This document shows positions 1 to 12,145 of a stretch of 64,000 nucleotides of DNA, one piece after another (position 1 is the first letter of the stretch; each line of letters opens with the position of its first letter). The position numbers and the translations under genes are program-made. The stretch lies in contig JANXCW010000008.1 in assembly GCA_025059775.1 (NCBI GenBank), positions 1-64,000 of the forward strand. The letters are read 5' to 3'. The notes under the pieces were generated by a model, which was not told the DNA's origin, did not search any database, and worked only from the letters and a program-made list of their open reading frames with translations. The stretch comes from Armatimonadota bacterium (GTDB lineage: Bacteria > Sysuimicrobiota > Sysuimicrobiia > Sysuimicrobiales > Sysuimicrobiaceae).

Positions 1-3000
1 CGATGATGGAGACCTCCGCGAGCCGCTCGGTGAGCGTCCGCGCGTCGAGCTCGCGCAACTCACTCGCGTGGAGCAGTCGGCCTGGGCCCACCGGGAGCCC
101 GGCCGCGCGGGCCACCGACTCCGCGGTGGCGGGGTGGTCACCCGTGATCATGATCACGCGTACGCCGGCCTCATGGCAGCGGCGCACGGCGTCCCGGACC
201 TGCGGCCGCAGCCCGTCGGCAATGCCAATCAGTCCCAGGGCGACGAGGTCCCTCGGGTCTTCCAGCGGCGTTTCGACAGCTCCCTCTGCCACGAGCAGCA
301 CCCGGAGGCCGTCACGCGCAAGTCCCAGCGCCGTCTCCTGTAAGGTCTCCAAGCGGTCCGGACTCGGATCTCCGGAAGGATTGGCCATCGCGGCGCAGCG
401 CGGCAAGAGGAACTCAGGGCTGCCCTTGAGGACCACCCGGTCGCGGAGCCTGACCGCATGGTACGGGCGGACGGAGTCGAAGGGCAGCTCCTCGAGTCGG
501 GCCGGACTGCCCGCATCCGGCAGGTCAAGGGCGCGGGCGGCCTCGAGGATCGCCGCATCCGTGGAGTGAGCGAGGGCGTCGCCGCGGTCGAGGGACGGAC
601 TCGCGAGGGCCGCCGCGGCCAACAGCCGGCGGGCGGGATCCGAGACGAGCGGGGAAACGTCCTCGGTCCCCGCCGCGGTCACGAGGCGCTGGACCCGGAG
701 CTGCCCGCGTGTCAGGGTGCCTGTCTTGTCCACACAGAGCACACTGACCCGCCCCAGGGCTTCCACGGCTGCGGGTCTCCTCGGGAGCACTCCCCGTCGG
801 GCCAAGCGGCGGGCGGTCGCGGCCTCACTCAAGCGCGCGAGCAGAGGCAGGCCTTCGGGCACCGCGGCCACGGTAAGACTTGCACCCAGGGCGACCTGAC
901 TGACCACGGGCGCACCCCGGGCGATCCCCGCGACCGTGACGAGCGCCCCCGCGGCGACCGACACCGGCAGACTGAGGCGCGTGAGCTGCGCTAGACGCGC
1001 AGCCAGGCGGTCCCCAGGAGGCAGTACGTCTCCCAAGGCTTGCCGGGTGGCCCCCAGGCGGGTATCCTCGCCGACCCCGACTACGACCGCCCTGGCGCTG
1101 CCACTGAGGACGTCCGTACCGGATAGGACGATGGCCCGCTCGTCATCCGCTCGGCTGTCCTTGACCACCGGCACCGACTCTCCCGTCAGCGCCGCTTCAT
1201 CCACCCGCAGGCTCTCGCTGTGGAGGAGCCTGGCGTCCGCGGGGACGCGGTCCCCGAAGCCGAGCAGGATCACGTCCCCGGGGACGAGCTCGGAGGGGGC
1301 GAGGAGTCGTTCGACCCCGTCGCGCAGCACACGGGCAGGCGGTGCACTCAGGCGGGCGAGGTGCGCAGTGGCCCGGGAGACGCTGTGCTCCTGCCAGCTG
1401 CCCACGGCCACATTGAAGAGAAGGGTTCCGAGGAGGATGACGAAGTCGAGGTGAGCACCTACCAGGAAGGAGAGCAGGGCGCCAGTAGCCAGGACAGCGA
1501 GAAGCGGTGAGTTCAGCTGATCCATGAGCGCCCGCCCCCAGGAACCCTCCGCCCGGTCGAGGGGCAGTGCCCTGCGACGCCGCCGGGCCTCCGCCTCACT
1601 CAGCCCCTCAGGCCGACTCTGCAGGTGCTCCAAGACCTCGGCCGGGGAGAGGCGGGCCCAGCGCTCCGGTTCGGGATCGACGAACCCAAAGCCCGTCGGG
1701 TCCTCCCCTCCCCGCAGACGCATCCAGCCGGCCACCAGGGCGAGGAACGCGCTTCCCGCGGACACCAGAGCGAGGGCCGGCGAGGGTCCCCCTCGGAGTC
1801 CGAGCCCCGCGGCGAGCCCGTTCGACGCCAGGGAGAGCGCCACACTATCGCGGACCGCGAGGTCGCGCCGATGCCCCGCTTCCACTAGAGCGGCCACCGA
1901 CGCGAGCCGTTGGACCACCGCGTCCGCGGTGGCATCGAGGGGACGCCGGTGGGGCGCCACGAGGACCGAAATGTGCGCCGCCGCGCAGGCCGGACCCGTC
2001 TGGCCATGGTCCGTCACGTAGAGGACGACCTCTCCCTGGGCCCGGAGGTGGTGGACGAGTTGCGCGGCATCGGGAGCCACTACCGTCTCCACGTCGGCCC
2101 CGCGGAGCCACGCGGGGACGGTCCCATGAGGGATCCGAACGAGGAGCCGCGCACCGGTTTGCGCACAGGCCCGGCGGAGGGGGTCGAGATCCGCCGAAAC
2201 CCTCGGCCGGAAGGTCCAGACGGCGACCACATCACCGGAGGGCACCCGCTCCAGGGCGAGGACCACGGGGGCCTCCGCATCAGCGGGTCTTGCCCCGTCC
2301 CGGTCCTCGTGCTTGCCCGGAGTCACGCGAACCAGCCGGTAGTGGGTCTGCACGTTCCTCACAGCAGCGACTGGGTCGGCGGGAGGAAACAGGCTCCGCC
2401 AAAGCGTGCCGTGGGCCGCCTCGCTGGCCCACACCGTCGCCTCGGCGACGCTCACCGACGGGTCGAGGATGTGGCATCTGTCTAGCTGGAGCCCGTCCAC
2501 GAGCAGAGCAGGATGGTCGAGGAGGACGACGGTGGGCCGGACCAGCCGACGGCCCGGGCGCAGGGCTGTGATGAGGGCTCCCCCTCGCAGAGCCCGGGCC
2601 ACCGCCCCGAGGTCTGCGGCCTCGGCTCCGATCAGGGCGGTCCGCGCGTTGACCAGGACCAACACCTGTGTCGCTATGCGCAGCGAACGGGTAACAGCCC
2701 CCGCCAGCCCGGCCGAGGCGAACGCCAGCGGAGTGATCAGCCGCAGGTACTGGGAGAGGACCCGGGGGTAGGGGGGCGCCGCGAGCAACCGCCGCGGCGG
2801 GGTCACCGGCCCCCAGACCCCCGTGAGTTCCCCGTCCATCACGAACGTGCCGGCAGGGAGCCGGATCGGCGCATAGCACAACTCCACGGTCCCGTCCGGC
2901 CGGATCACCAGCGCGCCCCCGCGGACGGCGTCCAGGTCGAAGGAGAGCCGGTCGGGAGCCCGCACCGCTGCCTCCCCACCCGGACGGCGGACCGGAGTCC

Positions 3001-4030
3001 GTAAAAGCATCGACTCATAGCGCTGCCATGCCCGCCTCCATGGGAACAGGGCAGAGAGGAGGCGGAGTCCTTCGGCGAAGCTGACCACGAGTCCGTGCTG
3101 CTGGCCATAGGCGGTGTGGGCGAAGATGCTCGCAGAGCTGGTCACGATATCCGCCGCGGCCGGGCCGACCGCCCGTCGGAGTCCTTCCCGAAAGGCCGGG
3201 AACCCCCGTGCGATGGTCACCCCGTCGGCGATCAGCGCGGGGACGGGGCTCGTAGCTAGGGGGAGGGGACGCCCCAACATCCTGCGGACTGCCAAAAAGA
3301 CGAGGGCTGCGCTCGCGGCCACGGTACGGCCAGCCGCGTACAGGAGGGGTCCGCGGTCGGTCGGAACGGTGGCTCGGTAACGGAGGAGAGGCTCTTCAGG
3401 GATCGGCAGGCCACTCAACGCCTCAAGGATCGCGTCCAGGTCCACGACGTCGGGGTCGTGCTCGACGAGCATCCGCCCGGTCGCCACACTCGCCCGGACG
3501 GTGACGGACCGGAGCGTCGACAGCAGGTGTTCGAGGTCTTGGGCCAGACGATGGTTCCCGTGAAGGCCCGCTACCCGGAGACGGACCCGCTGCCACCGGC
3601 GACCTTCGCGGTCGACCTGGACCGTGCGTTGATCGACGGCCACGCGATAGGGGGCAAGCGGAACGGAAAGGATCCGCGCGCCTTCCTCGTCGAGCGGCAG
3701 ACCTCCGCCGATCCCCTCGCGGATCGCTGCCACGATCTCGCCCTCGCTCGCCCCGTGCGGATCGTAACGGACGAGAAGGCTACCCGTCCACGGGTTGGCT
3801 TGGACCTGCAGCCCTCGCGCCCTTAACTCCCGCGCGAGCTCATCCAACCGGTGGGACTCAGCGCCATGGAGTCGAAAGCGGATCCGCCCGGGCAGCCGGT
3901 GTACCACGCGCAGTACGGCCGACCTGGGCGGTCGGGAACCCCTCCCCGCTGAGGCCGCGGGGCGCCCGGGAGGAGCATGGTCTACTTCGGCCGCCTGCTC
4001 CGCAGGCCCGGGGTTCGAGTCGACTGCCAT
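1..4030 (-). CDS. CtpI/CtpH-like giant P-type cation ATPase (3' end beyond window)
   Basis: ATP-driven cation pump of the inner membrane; the cargo ion cannot be read from the sequence. About 1343 residues are visible before the left edge. Translation shows two HMA-like beta-alpha modules without CxxC near residues 45-210, a long middle region, the actuator motif TGES near residue 949, a PEGLP membrane motif as in P2-type pumps, the phosphorylation motif DKTGT at D1101, a KGSPE nucleotide-binding segment and a TGDHPATA hinge close to the edge. Length and HMA-like N-terminus match the mycobacterial CtpH/CtpI group rather than ordinary 700-900-residue pumps. The ATG at 4030 is the first in-frame start and overlaps the preceding gene by 49 bases, so translational coupling is likely. 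The missing part should hold the last membrane helices. A metal-only P1B pump is less likely because of PEGLP. Confidence 0.9.
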   Translation of the reverse strand, partial: MAVDSNPGPAEQAAEVDHAPPGRPAASAGRGSRPPRSAVLRVVHRLPGRIRFRLHGAESHRLDELARELRARGLQVQANPWTGSLLVRYDPHGASEGEIVAAIREGIGGGLPLDEEGARILSVPLAPYRVAVDQRTVQVDREGRRWQRVRLRVAGLHGNHRLAQDLEHLLSTLRSVTVRASVATGRMLVEHDPDVVDLDAILEALSGLPIPEEPLLRYRATVPTDRGPLLYAAGRTVAASAALVFLAVRRMLGRPLPLATSPVPALIADGVTIARGFPAFREGLRRAVGPAAADIVTSSASIFAHTAYGQQHGLVVSFAEGLRLLSALFPWRRAWQRYESMLLRTPVRRPGGEAAVRAPDRLSFDLDAVRGGALVIRPDGTVELCYAPIRLPAGTFVMDGELTGVWGPVTPPRRLLAAPPYPRVLSQYLRLITPLAFASAGLAGAVTRSLRIATQVLVLVNARTALIGAEAADLGAVARALRGGALITALRPGRRLVRPTVVLLDHPALLVDGLQLDRCHILDPSVSVAEATVWASEAAHGTLWRSLFPPADPVAAVRNVQTHYRLVRVTPGKHEDRDGARPADAEAPVVLALERVPSGDVVAVWTFRPRVSADLDPLRRACAQTGARLLVRIPHGTVPAWLRGADVETVVAPDAAQLVHHLRAQGEVVLYVTDHGQTGPACAAAHISVLVAPHRRPLDATADAVVQRLASVAALVEAGHRRDLAVRDSVALSLASNGLAAGLGLRGGPSPALALVSAGSAFLALVAGWMRLRGGEDPTGFGFVDPEPERWARLSPAEVLEHLQSRPEGLSEAEARRRRRALPLDRAEGSWGRALMDQLNSPLLAVLATGALLSFLVGAHLDFVILLGTLLFNVAVGSWQEHSVSRATAHLARLSAPPARVLRDGVERLLAPSELVPGDVILLGFGDRVPADARLLHSESLRVDEAALTGESVPVVKDSRADDERAIVLSGTDVLSGSARAVVVGVGEDTRLGATRQALGDVLPPGDRLAARLAQLTRLSLPVSVAAGALVTVAGIARGAPVVSQVALGASLTVAAVPEGLPLLARLSEAATARRLARRGVLPRRPAAVEALGRVSVLCVDKTGTLTRGQLRVQRLVTAAGTEDVSPLVSDPARRLLAAAALASPSLDRGDALAHSTDAAILEAARALDLPDAGSPARLEELPFDSVRPYHAVRLRDRVVLKGSPEFLLPRCAAMANPSGDPSPDRLETLQETALGLARDGLRVLLVAEGAVETPLEDPRDLVALGLIGIADGLRPQVRDAVRRCHEAGVRVIMITGDHPATAESVARAAGLPVGPGRLLHASELRELDARTLTERLAEVSII

Positions 4031-6845: not shown

Positions 6846-7214
6846 TCAGCCGCCGTACAGCTCCCGCATCGTCCGGTCGAAGAACTGCCGGCCCGCGTCC
6901 AGGCGCTTGCGGAACTCCCGCTTCAGTACCCGGAGGTGGACGCGGCCCGCGTCGGTGATGGAGAGGGCCCAGCGCCGGCGGCCCTCGGGGTTCACCCAGC
7001 GCCCCTCTACGTAGCCCTCCGCGATGAGGCCCCGGACCACCTTGGAGACCGTGCCCTTGTTGGGGACCCAGAACCCCTCCCCCCCCAGACCTCGGATCCT
7101 CCGCAGGAGGTCCGCCTCGCTGAGCCCGGAGGCACCTTCGAGGAAGTGCAAGACCAGCAGGGCCACAAGCCGCTGGGCGCTCGTGATCCCCAGGTTGATG
7201 GCGGTGGGCGGCAT
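6846..7214 (-). CDS. PadR-like winged-helix transcriptional regulator
   Basis: Encodes 122 residues from the ATG at 7214; an upstream in-frame ATG at 7295 adds 27 residues that look non-coding. Residues 10-85 form a winged helix: helix LVALLVLHFLEG, helix SEADLLRRI, recognition helix NKGTVSKVVRGLIAEGYVE, and the wing VNPEGRRRWALSITDAGR. The C-terminal 35 residues are a charged helix that probably dimerises. This layout fits PadR/MarR-type repressors. Its target is unknown. It lies alone, leftward, next to decayed genes, so it may be left over from a lost module. Confidence 0.65.
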   Translation of the reverse strand: MPPTAINLGITSAQRLVALLVLHFLEGASGLSEADLLRRIRGLGGEGFWVPNKGTVSKVVRGLIAEGYVEGRWVNPEGRRRWALSITDAGRVHLRVLKREFRKRLDAGRQFFDRTMRELYGG

Positions 7215-7367
7215 ACCCGATCTACCAAACAGAGATTCGCGGTCACCCGCCCGGTTCCTGCTGAGGGCTGCTGGCAGGAGACATGGCCCCACCACGCGTT
7301 TCCAGGCGAAAGCTCCGGCGGCCCGGGCGCTGCACCCGAGCCGCCGGAGCCGCGGTGGACGGGTCGC

Positions 7368-7601
7368 TTACCTCCTCGGGGTGTCCGGCCGCCCTCCGTC
7401 TCTGTCAGGCCCGCCGGGCGGCTCCCCGGGGGGAGGTGTCGGCACTATTGGTTGGCCGGGGCCAGGTCCAGGGGCTGTGATCATCTTTTGGTTTCTGAAC
7501 TCCACGTTGACGGTCTGGCCCGGGCCCACGGTGACCGACACGGAGGGTGGGGTCACCGGCGTCCACCCCGCCTGCACCACTTCCGACACCGTGTAGGTCA
7601 T
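7368..7601 (-). pseudogene. Remnant of a surface protein with a Cna-B/SdrD-type domain
   Basis: A 77-codon open frame whose first half, TYTVSEVVQAGWTPVTPPSV followed by VTVGPGQTVNVEFRNQK, matches the closing strands of B-type (prealbumin-like) repeats of surface proteins. The second half is a Pro/Gly tail with PGPGPGQP and PPPGEPPGG. The front part of the domain is missing: upstream the frame runs into the 5' region of the sigma-factor gene on the other strand. I read it as the 3' end of a larger secreted protein that has been lost. An intact very short protein is possible but would lack a complete fold. Confidence 0.45.
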
Positions 7602-7663
7602 GGGAGCCCCCGGGCTACCCGCAAGGACTGTCTTCGAGCCTACATACCGTGAGGAAAGCGAGG

Positions 7664-8209
7664 ATGGGGCAGGGCGAGGAGCCGGAAGCGCTTCTGGTCC
7701 GGCGACCGCGGCCGGGGACGAGGGGGCGTTTGAGGCCCTGTTCCGGAGGTTCGAGCGTCCTCTGTAACCGGTACTTCCTGAGGATGGTGGGGGACGGAGA
7801 CGCCGCGGAGGAGCTGGTGTGTGAGACCATGGCAGCGGTGTGGAAGAGCGCTTCCCGGTTCCGGGGAGAGGCGCGGGCCTCCAGTTGGATCTTCGGCATC
7901 GCGCACCGCCGGGCCCTCGATTTCCTGCGCCGGCAGCCGCGGCAGGTGTCTTTGGGGGACGCCGGAGCGCTTCCCGCGCAGATGGATCCGGAAGAGGAGG
8001 CAGAGCGGGCGGATTTGGTGGAGCGGGTGCGCAAAGCCCTCAGCCAGCTGTCGCCCGAGCACCGGGAGGTGGTGCACCTGGTGTTCGACGCCGGGTTGTC
8101 CTACCAGGAGGTCGCGGAGGTCCTGGGGGTACCGGTGAACACCGTGAAGACCCGGATGTTCCACGCGCGGCAGAAGCTGCGGGGGTTGCTGGAACGGGAG
8201 GGGGTGTAG
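7664..8209 (+). pseudogene. ECF-type RNA polymerase sigma factor with double frameshift
   Basis: Start ATG at 7664 behind GAGGAAAGCGAGG. The long frame encodes a clear ECF sigma factor from YFLRMVGDGDAAEELV (region 2) to LSPEHREVVHLVF and SYQEVAEVLGVPVNTVKTR (region 4). The conserved start of region 2 is in another frame: 7702-7764 reads ATAAGDEGAFEALFRRFERP and then meets TAA at 7765. Two compensating indels, near 7700 and 7765, therefore replace about 21 conserved residues by unrelated sequence. The protein could still be made as 181 residues, but core-polymerase binding should be damaged. It is followed by anti-sigma and protease genes that are also frameshifted. Confidence 0.7.
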
Positions 8210-8211
8210 GG

Positions 8212-8837
8212 ACGGCCGGAGAGTGCCCGCAGCCCGAGCTGGCCGGGCTGCTTCCGTGGTACGTGAACGGCTCGTTGCAGGAGGAGGAGCGGCGCCTAGT
8301 GGAAGGGCACCTGCAGACCTGTGAGGTCTGCCGGCGGGAAGCGGGGCTGCTGTCCGCCGTGCGCCGGGCGGTGGAGGCGGACAGGACCGAGCTGCGTCCC
8401 GCGACGGACCTGTATGCCCGGACGAGGGAGCGCCTGCGCGACCGATCCCTGCTGAGCCGGGCGGTCAGGGTGCTGGGTCGGGCGGTGGCGCCGGTCCCTC
8501 TGTATGCGCGGCTGGTTTTTGCCGCGCAGCTGGCGGTCATCGTGGTGCTGGTGGGGATTCCAGTTACGGAGCAGGCCCCTACCACCCTGTCCGGTCCGCC
8601 GGAGCCTGCGAGGGGTGGTGTGCGGATCCAGGTACTGTTCCGGGAGCAGGCAACGGCCGCGGAAATCAGCCGGGCCCTTTCCGCGGCGGGGGTGGGGACC
8701 GTGGACGGACCGAGCCCTCTGGGGGTGTATCTCGTCTCGTGGAGGCCGAAGCCGGAAAACCGGCTTCCGAGGTGCTCCGCCGGGTAAGGGATTCGGGCGT
8801 GGTGGCCTTTGCGGAGGTAGTGGAGCAGGGGAGGTAG
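8212..8837 (+). pseudogene. Zinc-finger anti-sigma factor, frameshifted near its end
   Basis: Follows the sigma gene directly. The reading shows the anti-sigma zinc-binding motif (GHLQTCEVC, H-x3-C-x2-C) near the N-terminus, a single membrane span (RLVFAAQLAVIVVLVGIPV) and a short outer domain (VRIQVLFREQATAAEISRAL). Near 8735 the frame must change to continue with VEAEAGKPASEVLRRV and VVAFAEVVEQ, ending in TAG at 8835-8837; without the change it stops at 8787. No ATG, GTG or TTG sits at the expected N-terminus in this frame, so the true start is also uncertain. In an intact form it would hold the upstream sigma factor at the membrane. Confidence 0.6.
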
Positions 8838-8841
8838 GGGC

Positions 8842-10050
8842 GTGGGACGGCAGTTGCTTGTGGGCGTGCTGGCCGTCCTGGCCGTGTGGTCCTCCGTGGC
8901 CGCCCGCCCCGCCAGAGCCCTCCACCCCTGCGCCCACACGGCAACCGCCCGAGCAAGTCATCGCCCTGCTCGCGGTCACGGACCCGGATCGGGCCGGTCG
9001 GGTGGCGGAGGAGATCGCGCGGCAGGTCAACGGCGTGGTCCGCTATGTGTACCCGCTGCTTTCCCAGGAGGCCACGCTCGTCGTCCTGGAGGTGTCGCCG
9101 CCCGCGAACCTAGCCATCGGGATTGCTCGCCGGCATCCTGAAGTGATCGAGGCCGATTTGAACAGCGCCTACGAGACCCAACAGGACCCTCTTGCGCGGC
9201 ATCAGGTTGCCTTGCGGGCGACGGGCGCGGACAGGGTGCACCGCTTTCTGAGGGGGCGAGGCGTGGCAGTAGCGGTGGTGGACACCGGGGTGGATGTGGC
9301 CATGAAGACCTGAGGGAGGCGGTGGAGGCCGCGGGGACCTTCGTGGAAGGGATGGCTGGGCTGACGGCCGACCTCCATGGGACGGAGGTGGCCGGCATCA
9401 TCGGAGCCCGGCGCAACGGGGTGGGGATTGTGGGGGTGGCGCCAGAAGCGCGGCTCGTGGCCTTGCAAGCCTGTGTACCGAAGCGACAGGGCGGCCGGGA
9501 AGGTGTCTGCCTGGGGCACCGGGTGGTGCGAGCCGTGGATACGGTCCTGAAACTCGGCGTGCGGATCCTGAACGTGAGTTTCGGAGGGCCGTCGAACCGG
9601 GCGGTGAACCGGGTGGTGCTGAGGGCCGTGGCGCAGGGGGTGGTGGTCGTGGCGGCGGCCGGGAACAACGGGCCTCAGGGGCCCTGGCTGTATCCCGCGG
9701 CGCTGCCGGGGGTGTTGGCGGTGGGCGCATCGGAACCTGGGGGCGAGCCCTGGTCTCGGTCAAACCTGGGAGGTCACGTGCGCCTGCTGGCCCCGGGAGT
9801 GGACGTGCTGACCACGCTGCCTTCGGACCGGTACGGGTTTGTAACAGGGATCTCCTACGCAGCCGCGGTGGCGAGCGGTGCAGTGGCGCCCGTGATGGAG
9901 GCGGTGCCGGACCTGTCGCCGGAACAGTTGACCGCTGCCCTCCGGCCCGCGGCGGCAGGAGGTAGGACCGGGGTGCCGGCTCAGCTCGACATCTGCAGGG
10001 CACTCGCCCGCATCGGGATTCCTGAGGTTTGTTTGTCGGGACACGGGTGA
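8842..10050 (+). pseudogene. Secreted S8 subtilisin-like protease, two frameshifts
   Basis: GTG at 8842 starts a signal peptide (LLVGVLAVLAVWSSVAARP). Near 8925 the frame changes to a propeptide-like part (EQVIALLAVTDPDRAGRV) and reaches the catalytic Asp motif AVAVVDTGVD. At 9300 one base is missing, and the rest continues in a third frame from HEDLREAV through the catalytic His motif HGTEVAGI, oxyanion-region NVSFGG, AAAGNNG and the catalytic Ser motif GISYAAAVASG. All three catalytic segments are present but in two frames, so no complete enzyme can be made without correction. Downstream position after sigma and anti-sigma genes suggests it belonged to that regulon. The Ser motif differs from the usual GTSMAAP. 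Confidence 0.7.
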
Positions 10051-10115
10051 GAGGGAAGCGGGAGCGGCTTCTCTTCCAGGGCGTCGCCCGGCGGAGGCAA
10101 TTCCGGACGCGGGGA

Positions 10116-10427
10116 TCAGCCCCAAGTGTCCACGAACCGGCTGATGTCGCCCGCGAGGAACCGAGCCAGCTGCGTCCGACGAAGGGTGAGGAGAGCGATG
10201 ATTCTGCGGTTCATCCGCAGGGCCGCGTCCAGCAAGGGCAAGGCTTCCCCCCGCAGCCGCACGCGGTCCTTCGGGTCTAGCGGGGGAAGGGATTCCACCG
10301 CCTCCATGAGTTCCTGGCGGCGGCGCAGGCATTCCGCCAGACGCTCGATCTCTCCCCGCTCTGCGGCAACCGCAGCCTGCTCGGTGCAATGCAGAATCTC
10401 CCGGTAGGTCTCGCGGTGGGCGTCCAT
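10116..10427 (-). CDS. fliT: FliT-like flagellar chaperone
   Basis: Encodes 103 residues, nearly all helical: a first helix TYREILHCTEQAAVAAERGEI, a second with LRRRQELMEAVESL, then LLDAALRMNRRIIALLTLRR. Size, helical make-up and place directly after fliS (3 bases apart) fit a FliT/FlgN-type chaperone, which in flagellates binds the cap protein FliD before export. Sequence conservation in this family is weak, so the name rests largely on context. It is the last gene of the leftward flagellar cluster. Confidence 0.65.
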   Translation of the reverse strand: MDAHRETYREILHCTEQAAVAAERGEIERLAECLRRRQELMEAVESLPPLDPKDRVRLRGEALPLLDAALRMNRRIIALLTLRRTQLARFLAGDISRFVDTWG

Positions 10428-10430
10428 GGA

Positions 10431-10808
10431 TCAGTGCACACCCGCCCGGGTCTTGCGCTCTGCCTCCGCCCACGCTTCCCGCAGCTCCGCCACCCACCCC
10501 CGCACCCGCTCCAGCTCCGCGGCATCCCGGTTGCGTCTGGCTTCCCCCATGCGTTCGAACAGGTACCGGTAAAGGCTGAGGAGGTGGTGGGCCAGCTCGT
10601 ACCGAAGATCCAGACAGGCCATGAGCTCCAGCACCACCTGCTCCGCCCGAACCACCGCCTGGTGGGCGGTGCTCTCGTTGCCCGCCCGGTAGGCGCGGAT
10701 GGCCTCGTCCAGAAACCGCACGGCACCGTCGTACAGCATGACCACCAGCTGCCCCGGGGTGGCAGTGGAGGCGTGAAAACTCCTGTAGGCAAGGGCCGCG
10801 GGCTTCAT
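10431..10808 (-). CDS. fliS: Flagellin export chaperone FliS
   Basis: Encodes 125 residues. The typical FliS start is visible: AYRSFHASTATPGQLVVMLYDGAVRFLDEA, followed by the helices VVRAEQVVLELMACLDLR and LLSLYRYLFERMGEA. FliS binds the C-terminal helices of flagellin in the cytoplasm, keeps it unpolymerised and delivers it to the export gate. The ATG at 10808 overlaps the fliD stop as ATGA, so the two are translationally coupled. An upstream start at 11003 would run through fliD and is a shadow. Confidence 0.93.
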   Translation of the reverse strand: MKPAALAYRSFHASTATPGQLVVMLYDGAVRFLDEAIRAYRAGNESTAHQAVVRAEQVVLELMACLDLRYELAHHLLSLYRYLFERMGEARRNRDAAELERVRGWVAELREAWAEAERKTRAGVH

Positions 10809-12145
10809 GAGCTCCTCCCTCCCAGGTTGCGGATCTGCATCGCAAGCCAGTCCCCTTGGCTGCGCAGCTGGCCCAGGCTCTTCTCCAGCTCCGTGAACAT
10901 GCGGACGAGCTGCTCCCGCTTGCGTTCCACCCGGTCCTCCCACCGCGCGATCTGCTGGTCGTAGGTGCGGATGCGGCTGTTGAGGGCGTCCACGGCCCCC
11001 CACACGGGGCCGTCCACCTTGGTGAGCCCGTCCGCCACCTCCCGTAGCCTGCTGCCCGCGGCCTCCAGCACCCGCCGCGCTTCGTCAAACCGGCCCTGCA
11101 GGGCGTCGGAGAGCTTCGACTCGTCCAGCGTGAGCCTGCCGTCCCGGCCCACCCGCACCCCCAGGTCGCTGAGCCGCCTGAGGGTCTGGTCGGCCACTTC
11201 CGTGCGGAGGACCGCGTCCGGCAGCTGGGCTTGGATCCGCTGGAGGGTCCCGTCGCCCTGCAGGGCCCCGCGCTGCCTGGTGTTTGGGTCGTACCGCCCG
11301 TACTGGCTGAGGGCGTCTGCGACGTCGTTGTACGCGGCCACGAACTCCCGCACCGCTCTTTTGACCGCTTCCACATCCTGCTCCACGGTCACGGTGGCCG
11401 TACCGGTGGCCGCCAGCGCCAGGGTGACCCCCGGCAGGAGGTCCGTGACCAGGTTGGTCGGACGGTGCGCCGTCACAGCCCCGCTGCCCGTACCCAACAC
11501 CACCTCCGCGTCCTGGGCCGGGCTGAGCTCGTGGGGGAAGCCCAGCGCCTGCGTGCCACCCACCAGGCCGCTGGCGTCCACGGACACCGCCCCCGCCTGC
11601 CCGGAGGTCCTGGAGGTGACCAGCAGGCGGTAGCCGCCGTCCACCTGGACCACCGCGGCGTACACGCCTGCGCTCGCGGCGTTGATGGCCGCCGCGATCC
11701 CCGAAAGGGAGTTCTGGCCGTCTGCGACGGTGACGTCCTTGGGGCTCCCGTTGACGGTGACGGTCAGGGTCCCGGTGCCGAACACCAGGGCGTCCTTGTC
11801 CGCAACGGTGTCGGTGCTCAGCTGGTGGGCGGAAGCCAGCCGGCTGACGGTGACCGTGTAGGTGCCGGGTGGAGCACCCGGGCCCGCGGAGGCCACCACG
11901 ACGCGGGTGTCGCTGCTGGTGGCCCTGGCAGCCTGGTAGGTGAGGCCCCTTGCCAGGGTCGCGGCCCGCTCTTCCAGGGCGGCCAGCTTGCTGTTCAGGG
12001 CCCGCCAGGCCCCAAGCCTCGCGTTGGCGTCGCTTTTCCGGGCCTGCAGCTTCCGGACCGGCGCCCGCTCCACCTCCAGCAGCTTGTTGATGACCTCCGT
12101 GGTGTTCAGGCCCGAGATCAAGCCGTCGACGCTGAACGTGGACAC
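10805..12145 (-). CDS. fliD: Flagellar filament cap protein FliD
   Basis: Encodes 446 residues. The N-terminus FSVDGLISGLNTTEVINKLLEVERAPV is the conserved FliD domain with its coiled coil. The middle contains the beta-rich cap domains (TVTVSRLASAHQLSTDTV, VTVNGSPKDV). The C-terminus has the second conserved domain (NDVADALSQYG, LSDLGVRVGRDGRLTLDESKL) and a closing coiled coil. FliD sits as a multimer on the filament tip and guides flagellin folding outside the cell. The GTG/ATG choice at 12145 gives the family start. It is followed by fliS with a 4-base overlap and preceded by flaG after 76 bases. Confidence 0.95.
   Translation of the reverse strand: MSTFSVDGLISGLNTTEVINKLLEVERAPVRKLQARKSDANARLGAWRALNSKLAALEERAATLARGLTYQAARATSSDTRVVVASAGPGAPPGTYTVTVSRLASAHQLSTDTVADKDALVFGTGTLTVTVNGSPKDVTVADGQNSLSGIAAAINAASAGVYAAVVQVDGGYRLLVTSRTSGQAGAVSVDASGLVGGTQALGFPHELSPAQDAEVVLGTGSGAVTAHRPTNLVTDLLPGVTLALAATGTATVTVEQDVEAVKRAVREFVAAYNDVADALSQYGRYDPNTRQRGALQGDGTLQRIQAQLPDAVLRTEVADQTLRRLSDLGVRVGRDGRLTLDESKLSDALQGRFDEARRVLEAAGSRLREVADGLTKVDGPVWGAVDALNSRIRTYDQQIARWEDRVERKREQLVRMFTELEKSLGQLRSQGDWLAMQIRNLGGRSS

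Follow-up and report, generated by a model that had tools for sequence, protein, structure and literature searches.

Three neighbouring genes at 7664-10050, identified by Pfam as those for an ECF sigma factor, a ZAS-type zinc-finger anti-sigma factor and an S8 subtilase, are crossed by several changes of reading frame, and the question they raise is whether these mark an operon that has recently died, an error in the assembled consensus, or a locus whose shifts are switched or bypassed. The window referred to throughout is the whole 64,000-nucleotide stretch analysed, C8:1-64000 of a 2.35-Mb genome (G000) assembled in 59 contigs. We suggest, with a probability of about 0.7, that the window operon, with its ECF sigma factor, anti-sigma factor and subtilase, is a second copy that has recently been inactivated. 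The features on which this suggestion draws are collected in Table 1.

Table 1. Coordinates of the broken operon, its neighbours, its intact relatives and the frame-split orthologues on the same contig
Feature	Location	Strand	Evidence or remark
PadR-like regulator, intact	window 6846..7295	-	
77-aa open frame	window 7368..7601	-	between PadR and sigma gene
ECF sigma-70 factor gene	window 7664..8209	+	Pfam Sigma70_r2 / r4_2, frame mapping, NCBIfam read-through gain
Anti-sigma factor	window 8224..8837	+	Pfam zf-HC2, alignment to three intact relatives; start approximate
Secreted S8 subtilase	window 8842..10050	+	Pfam Peptidase_S8, frame mapping
Flagellar FliT-like, FliS, FliD genes	window 10116..12145	-	near end of 66-kb block inverted vs G001
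Intact operon, G000:C26	L039 3169-5983		
Intact operon, G001:C5	L040 12014-14845		
Intact operon, G006:C34	L041 3448-6172		
Intact anti-sigma, G000:C26	L039 4797-5372		
Intact anti-sigma, G001:C5	L040 12637-13212		
Intact anti-sigma, G006:C34	L041 5037-5618		
RACo-type corrinoid activation gene	C8:72.83-72.89 kb (L060 about 8828-8888)		frame-split row
Gene at 54.35 kb	C8		frame-split row; N-terminal only
Gene at 98.1 kb	C8		frame-split row; with deletion

Frame changes in the three genes

The earlier note had described at least five frameshifts, two in the sigma gene, one in the anti-sigma gene and two in the protease gene, and all of the genes and shifts were recovered where it had placed them. 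In the sigma gene, conserved peptides fall successively in frames 2, 1 and 2, with frame changes at 7702-7706 and 7760-7764. The second of these was also recovered by frameshift-aware alignment against a profile built from three intact relatives. Reading through the shifts raised the score of NCBIfam PRK12513 from 97.2 to 119.4 bits and moved the start of the match from residue 36 to residue 6, spanning both pieces, while PRK12518 rose from 80.2 to 94.5 bits (start at residue 6) and PRK12534 from 74.7 to 94.7 bits (start at residue 13); the gain for Pfam Sigma70_r2 was only 1.7 bits. The first sigma shift, whose support lies in these profile gains, is weaker than the second, and the fit of the frame-2 N-terminal peptide to the adjoining register reaches the 3.5% level only. 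The frame-1 piece can also start at its own ATG, at 7600, so that the strict minimum is four shifts.

Membership of the ECF family is indicated by scores above the cut-off for both Sigma70_r2 (51.2 bits; cut-off 24) and Sigma70_r4_2 (57.4 bits; cut-off 25.7), and the sigma frame is open throughout 7664-8206 (181 aa), matching Sigma70_r2 from profile position 11 and Sigma70_r4_2 nearly whole. It might accordingly be asked whether the sigma factor still functions, the two compensating shifts exchanging about 20 residues, with only the anti-sigma factor and the protease dead. We consider this very improbable. For the residues encoded by about 7705-7764, which make up the first helix of region 2, conservation is seen only in a different frame, and no single reading frame holds a complete region 2. 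Against an ECF profile built from at most 11 ECF sequences, with other-strand loci left out, the frame-1 helix piece scored +15.6 bits and the frame-2 segment that replaces it -25.0; the frame-1 score, in the best of three registers, is equalled by a fraction of about 1e-4 among 185,866 background segments. A sigma factor left unrestrained would, moreover, probably be costly.

The anti-sigma gene encodes a zf-HC2 domain (31.8 bits; cut-off 22.2) with an HxxxCxxC motif, whose His and both Cys are invariant across four anti-sigma sequences, followed by one transmembrane stretch and a C-terminal prodomain-like part. Conserved peptides place a cut in this last part at 8737-8738, with the second piece at 8739-8837, and the frameshift-aware alignment puts the same shift at 8760.

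The subtilase gene is divided into a signal peptide (8842-8919), a prodomain with the catalytic Asp motif (8945-9298) and a part bearing the His, Asn and Ser motifs (9301-10050), with shifts at 8920-8944 and at 9299-9300, the latter placed at 9301 by the alignment. All four motifs of the S8 family are thus present, spread over two frames, and read-through raised the Peptidase_S8 match from 117.9 bits (profile 54-279) to 138.2 bits (1-279). The shift at 8920-8944 rests on gene architecture rather than on homology: frame 1 from 8842 offers a ribosome-binding site, a GTG and a typical signal peptide, and the prodomain lies in frame 2. A further shift at 9956 proposed by the frameshift-aware alignment was judged spurious, as the C-terminus aligns by eye without one. 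A single residue of the window subtilase is suspicious, the Ile that replaces Thr in the catalytic GTS motif. Thr stands at this position in all 25 counted locus entries with a GTS-type motif, a tally that is partly circular (7 of 17 pattern strings were dropped by eye as non-motif, and some loci overlap) and whose pattern missed the C26 subtilase and one G001 subtilase, both of which carry GTS. Homology firmly establishes three of the five shifts, namely the second in sigma, that in the anti-sigma gene and that at 9299-9300 in the subtilase gene, and a total of five across the operon is likely.

Intact relatives and the inversion junction

Operons with the same gene order occur intact on contig C26 of the same genome, in a genome of the same genus (G001:C5) and in a further genome (G006:C34), and in these three, unlike the window operon, the sigma, anti-sigma and subtilase frames that were examined run on unbroken. 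Identity to the C26, G001 and G006 copies, respectively, is 47%, 45% and 46% for the window subtilase and 47%, 47% and 44% for the window sigma factor; at 44-47% identity, the window operon is an old paralogue rather than a recent duplicate. The three intact subtilases also differ from that of the window in having some 150 additional N-terminal residues ahead of the prodomain. Modelled on these relatives, the working form would be one in which a membrane-bound zinc-finger anti-sigma factor holds the sigma factor until an outside signal frees it, and the sigma factor would then activate the very operon to which it belongs, and with it the gene for the secreted subtilase. The indels would split the subtilase between its Asp and His motifs, separate it from its signal peptide, interrupt the outer domain of the anti-sigma factor, and scramble about 20 residues of sigma region 2.

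Full-length matches to the anti-sigma profile were found in three of 43 genomes (G000, G001 and G006), and they number four if the broken copy, with a match that stops at 171 of 194, is counted; in the remaining genomes the profile matched the zinc-finger part or scattered pieces only. No close orthologue emerged, either from the anti-sigma search of 43 genomes of the order or from a subtilase search of the genome contigs, which returned 22 loci at 27-40% identity. A search of plasmids gave no match to the anti-sigma factor, and at the DNA level it gave one 64-base match to the sigma gene.

The genomic setting is that of a rearrangement. The segment C8:10118-76041 is collinear with G001:C1:370825-298896 but inverted relative to it, as a block of 66 kb, and the PadR gene (6850-7262) matches G001:C1:298415-298827, beside the other end of the block. 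Lying between the PadR gene and the flagellar block, the broken operon therefore sits at the inversion junction. Alignments of G001, G002, G004, G005 and G006 stop at 10118-10480, close to where the flagellar genes finish, and no operon-like sequence was found at that place in these five genomes. The 77-aa open frame next to the PadR gene resembles, by eye, the C-terminus of a secreted beta-domain protein, had no Pfam match and no relative among six other genomes searched, and is perhaps a truncated gene at the junction. At the start of the window, 2-4030 on the minus strand holds the gene for a very long P-type ATPase (1343 aa) with a heavy-metal-associated domain, open at the contig end.

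Recent decay, consensus error or programmed shifting

A pseudogene is disrupted relative to intact homologues in the organism itself; here the disruption was seen by alignment, in the assembled consensus. An obvious concern is therefore that the consensus is locally wrong, the three genes being actually intact and the shifts arising in a poorly covered or strain-mixed stretch of the metagenome. We judge this unlikely, largely on the distribution of the shifts. With the same-genus G001 as reference, 3 of 106 orthologues on C8 were frame-split over 92,358 nt of coding sequence, and in the reverse direction (G000 as reference, G001 tested) 0 of 104; stop-only rows, many of them antisense or over-extended, had been set aside by eye from both counts (five of eight flagged rows on C8, eight of eight on G001). 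These figures agree with the statement of the earlier note that the rest of the window is nearly free of shifts. The background rate, which comes from conserved genes kept open by selection, leads by hand arithmetic to about 0.08 shifts expected in 2.4 kb, against five observed, and an even error rate would thus not yield five in such a span. Nor do homopolymers account for the sites: the stretch 7601-10060 contains no run as long as 6 bases, and at sites 1 and 2 no run reaches 4. The nearest paralogue is 47% identical in protein, which makes a collapsed repeat unlikely.

Other broken genes in the genome were also noted. The RACo-type gene is split by one frame change, and its G001 orthologue is intact (617 aa, Pfam RACo_C_ter). 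At C8:97.96-98.41 kb (L061), G000 keeps just the two ends, in different frames, of a G001 gene of ~300 aa, with a deletion. A second ECF sigma gene, at L043 3281-3741 on the minus strand (G000:C22:6280-6740), has regions 2 and 4 in different frames, and its orthologue at G001:C1:380407-380865 is in a single frame. Three other approaches to counting shifts were given up. A codon-usage model of reading frame that allowed for frameshifts mistook overlapping genes on the minus strand for shifts and overlooked the operon, since the shifted frames run into stops at short range; a count of gaps of non-multiple-of-three length against G001 (263 over 100,924 aligned bases) lumps intergenic gaps together with compensated ones; and an earlier orthologue comparison was polluted by antisense open frames.

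The composition of the genes bears on the age of any decay. The fragments have a GC3 of 0.81-0.88, where 65 contig genes average 0.86 (sd 0.05) and the C26 genes range over 0.83-0.88; an apparently low GC3 in 150-base windows of the operon proved wrong once it was calculated per fragment. None of 21 near-invariant residues is changed in the S8 domain (26 sequences) and none of 7 in the sigma factor (30 sequences), and no in-frame nonsense codon occurs over 741 codons. Only 2.6% of single changes create a nonsense codon, so that none would be expected after neutral divergence of a few per cent. Normal GC3, the retention of conserved residues and the lack of nonsense codons together mean that decay, if it has occurred, is of recent date, and there is little sign that the operon has been released from selection. 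The same three observations fit recent decay and local consensus error alike, and the division of the genome into 59 contigs, with a few other single shifts, is likewise in keeping with error. On the other side, decay is favoured by the gathering of the shifts in one operon, by the lack of homopolymers at least 6 bases long and by how seldom genes elsewhere are split (103 of 106 contig orthologues are not). The intact operons, the Ile in the GTS motif and the position at the inversion junction count on this side too. We infer that the indels are real and recent, and that they are tolerated because the C26 operon can do the same job.

Conserved sequence flanks every shift, as it might if the locus were phase-variable or recoded, its shifts being switched or bypassed and all three proteins made. 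The earlier note had ranked this behind decay, and rightly so: the five sites are unrelated and without long tracts, the repeat tract by which phase variation is recognised is lacking, and the intact relatives need no recoding, all of which makes such a locus scarcely credible. The note's preferred description, a real and recent decay of one regulon, fares well as to decay, given the clustered shifts and the intact relatives, and is too strong as to "one regulon", since the intact C26 operon remains and the C22 ECF sigma gene and the RACo-type gene are also frameshifted. Recent pseudogene clusters are common in bacterial genomes, and with an intact relative in its own genome the broken operon is itself ordinary; it is nevertheless a clean example of decay picked out by frame-by-frame reading.

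A subtilase prodomain on the intact anti-sigma factors

The architecture of the intact copies is the more useful by-product, as it proposes a testable sensor for secreted protease activity. Each intact anti-sigma factor consists of a zf-HC2 domain, a membrane segment and a C-terminal Fervidolysin_NPro-like prodomain, and its gene adjoins that of an S8 subtilase. The prodomain (PF22148) was above the cut-off of 21 in all three (22.0, 25.1 and 29.5 bits); in the window anti-sigma factor it stayed below the Pfam cut-off, even on read-through. Classical ECF sigma / ZAS anti-sigma pairs are of the RpoE-RseA and SigR-RsrA type. The present module shares with them sigma regions 2 and 4, an HxxxCxxC zinc finger and, as in most, a membrane anchor; it differs in the subtilase-prodomain outer domain of the intact relatives, in having a subtilase as third gene and, for the window copy, in its broken frames. 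The prodomain family is that of the fervidolysin-type subtilases (PF22148 + PF00082), in which the prodomain precedes the protease in one chain, whereas in the intact relatives it is carried on the anti-sigma factor. In the subtilases of the module itself the prodomain has diverged (E 0.26 in G001). No description of an anti-sigma factor with a subtilase prodomain was found in the open-licence part of the literature.

Tentatively, this domain arrangement suggests the hypothesis that the anti-sigma factor uses its borrowed external prodomain to sense a neighbouring or rival secreted subtilase, which may dock on it or cut it, with the window copy being a second one that died beside the inversion junction; we hold this scheme to be possible rather than probable. 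Besides the Pfam matches of the intact copies, the fact that the anti-sigma profile also touches two subtilase open frames, at G001:C5:54490 and G000:C19:2264 (E about 7e-4), speaks for it. Searched against solved structures, the outer domain had no match (best E 0.11). Against the hypothesis stand the window copy, which stays under the Pfam threshold, and the weak similarity given by a profile comparison of the outer domain with the prodomains of the module's own subtilases (probability 34.5%, 28 columns, E 0.00042).
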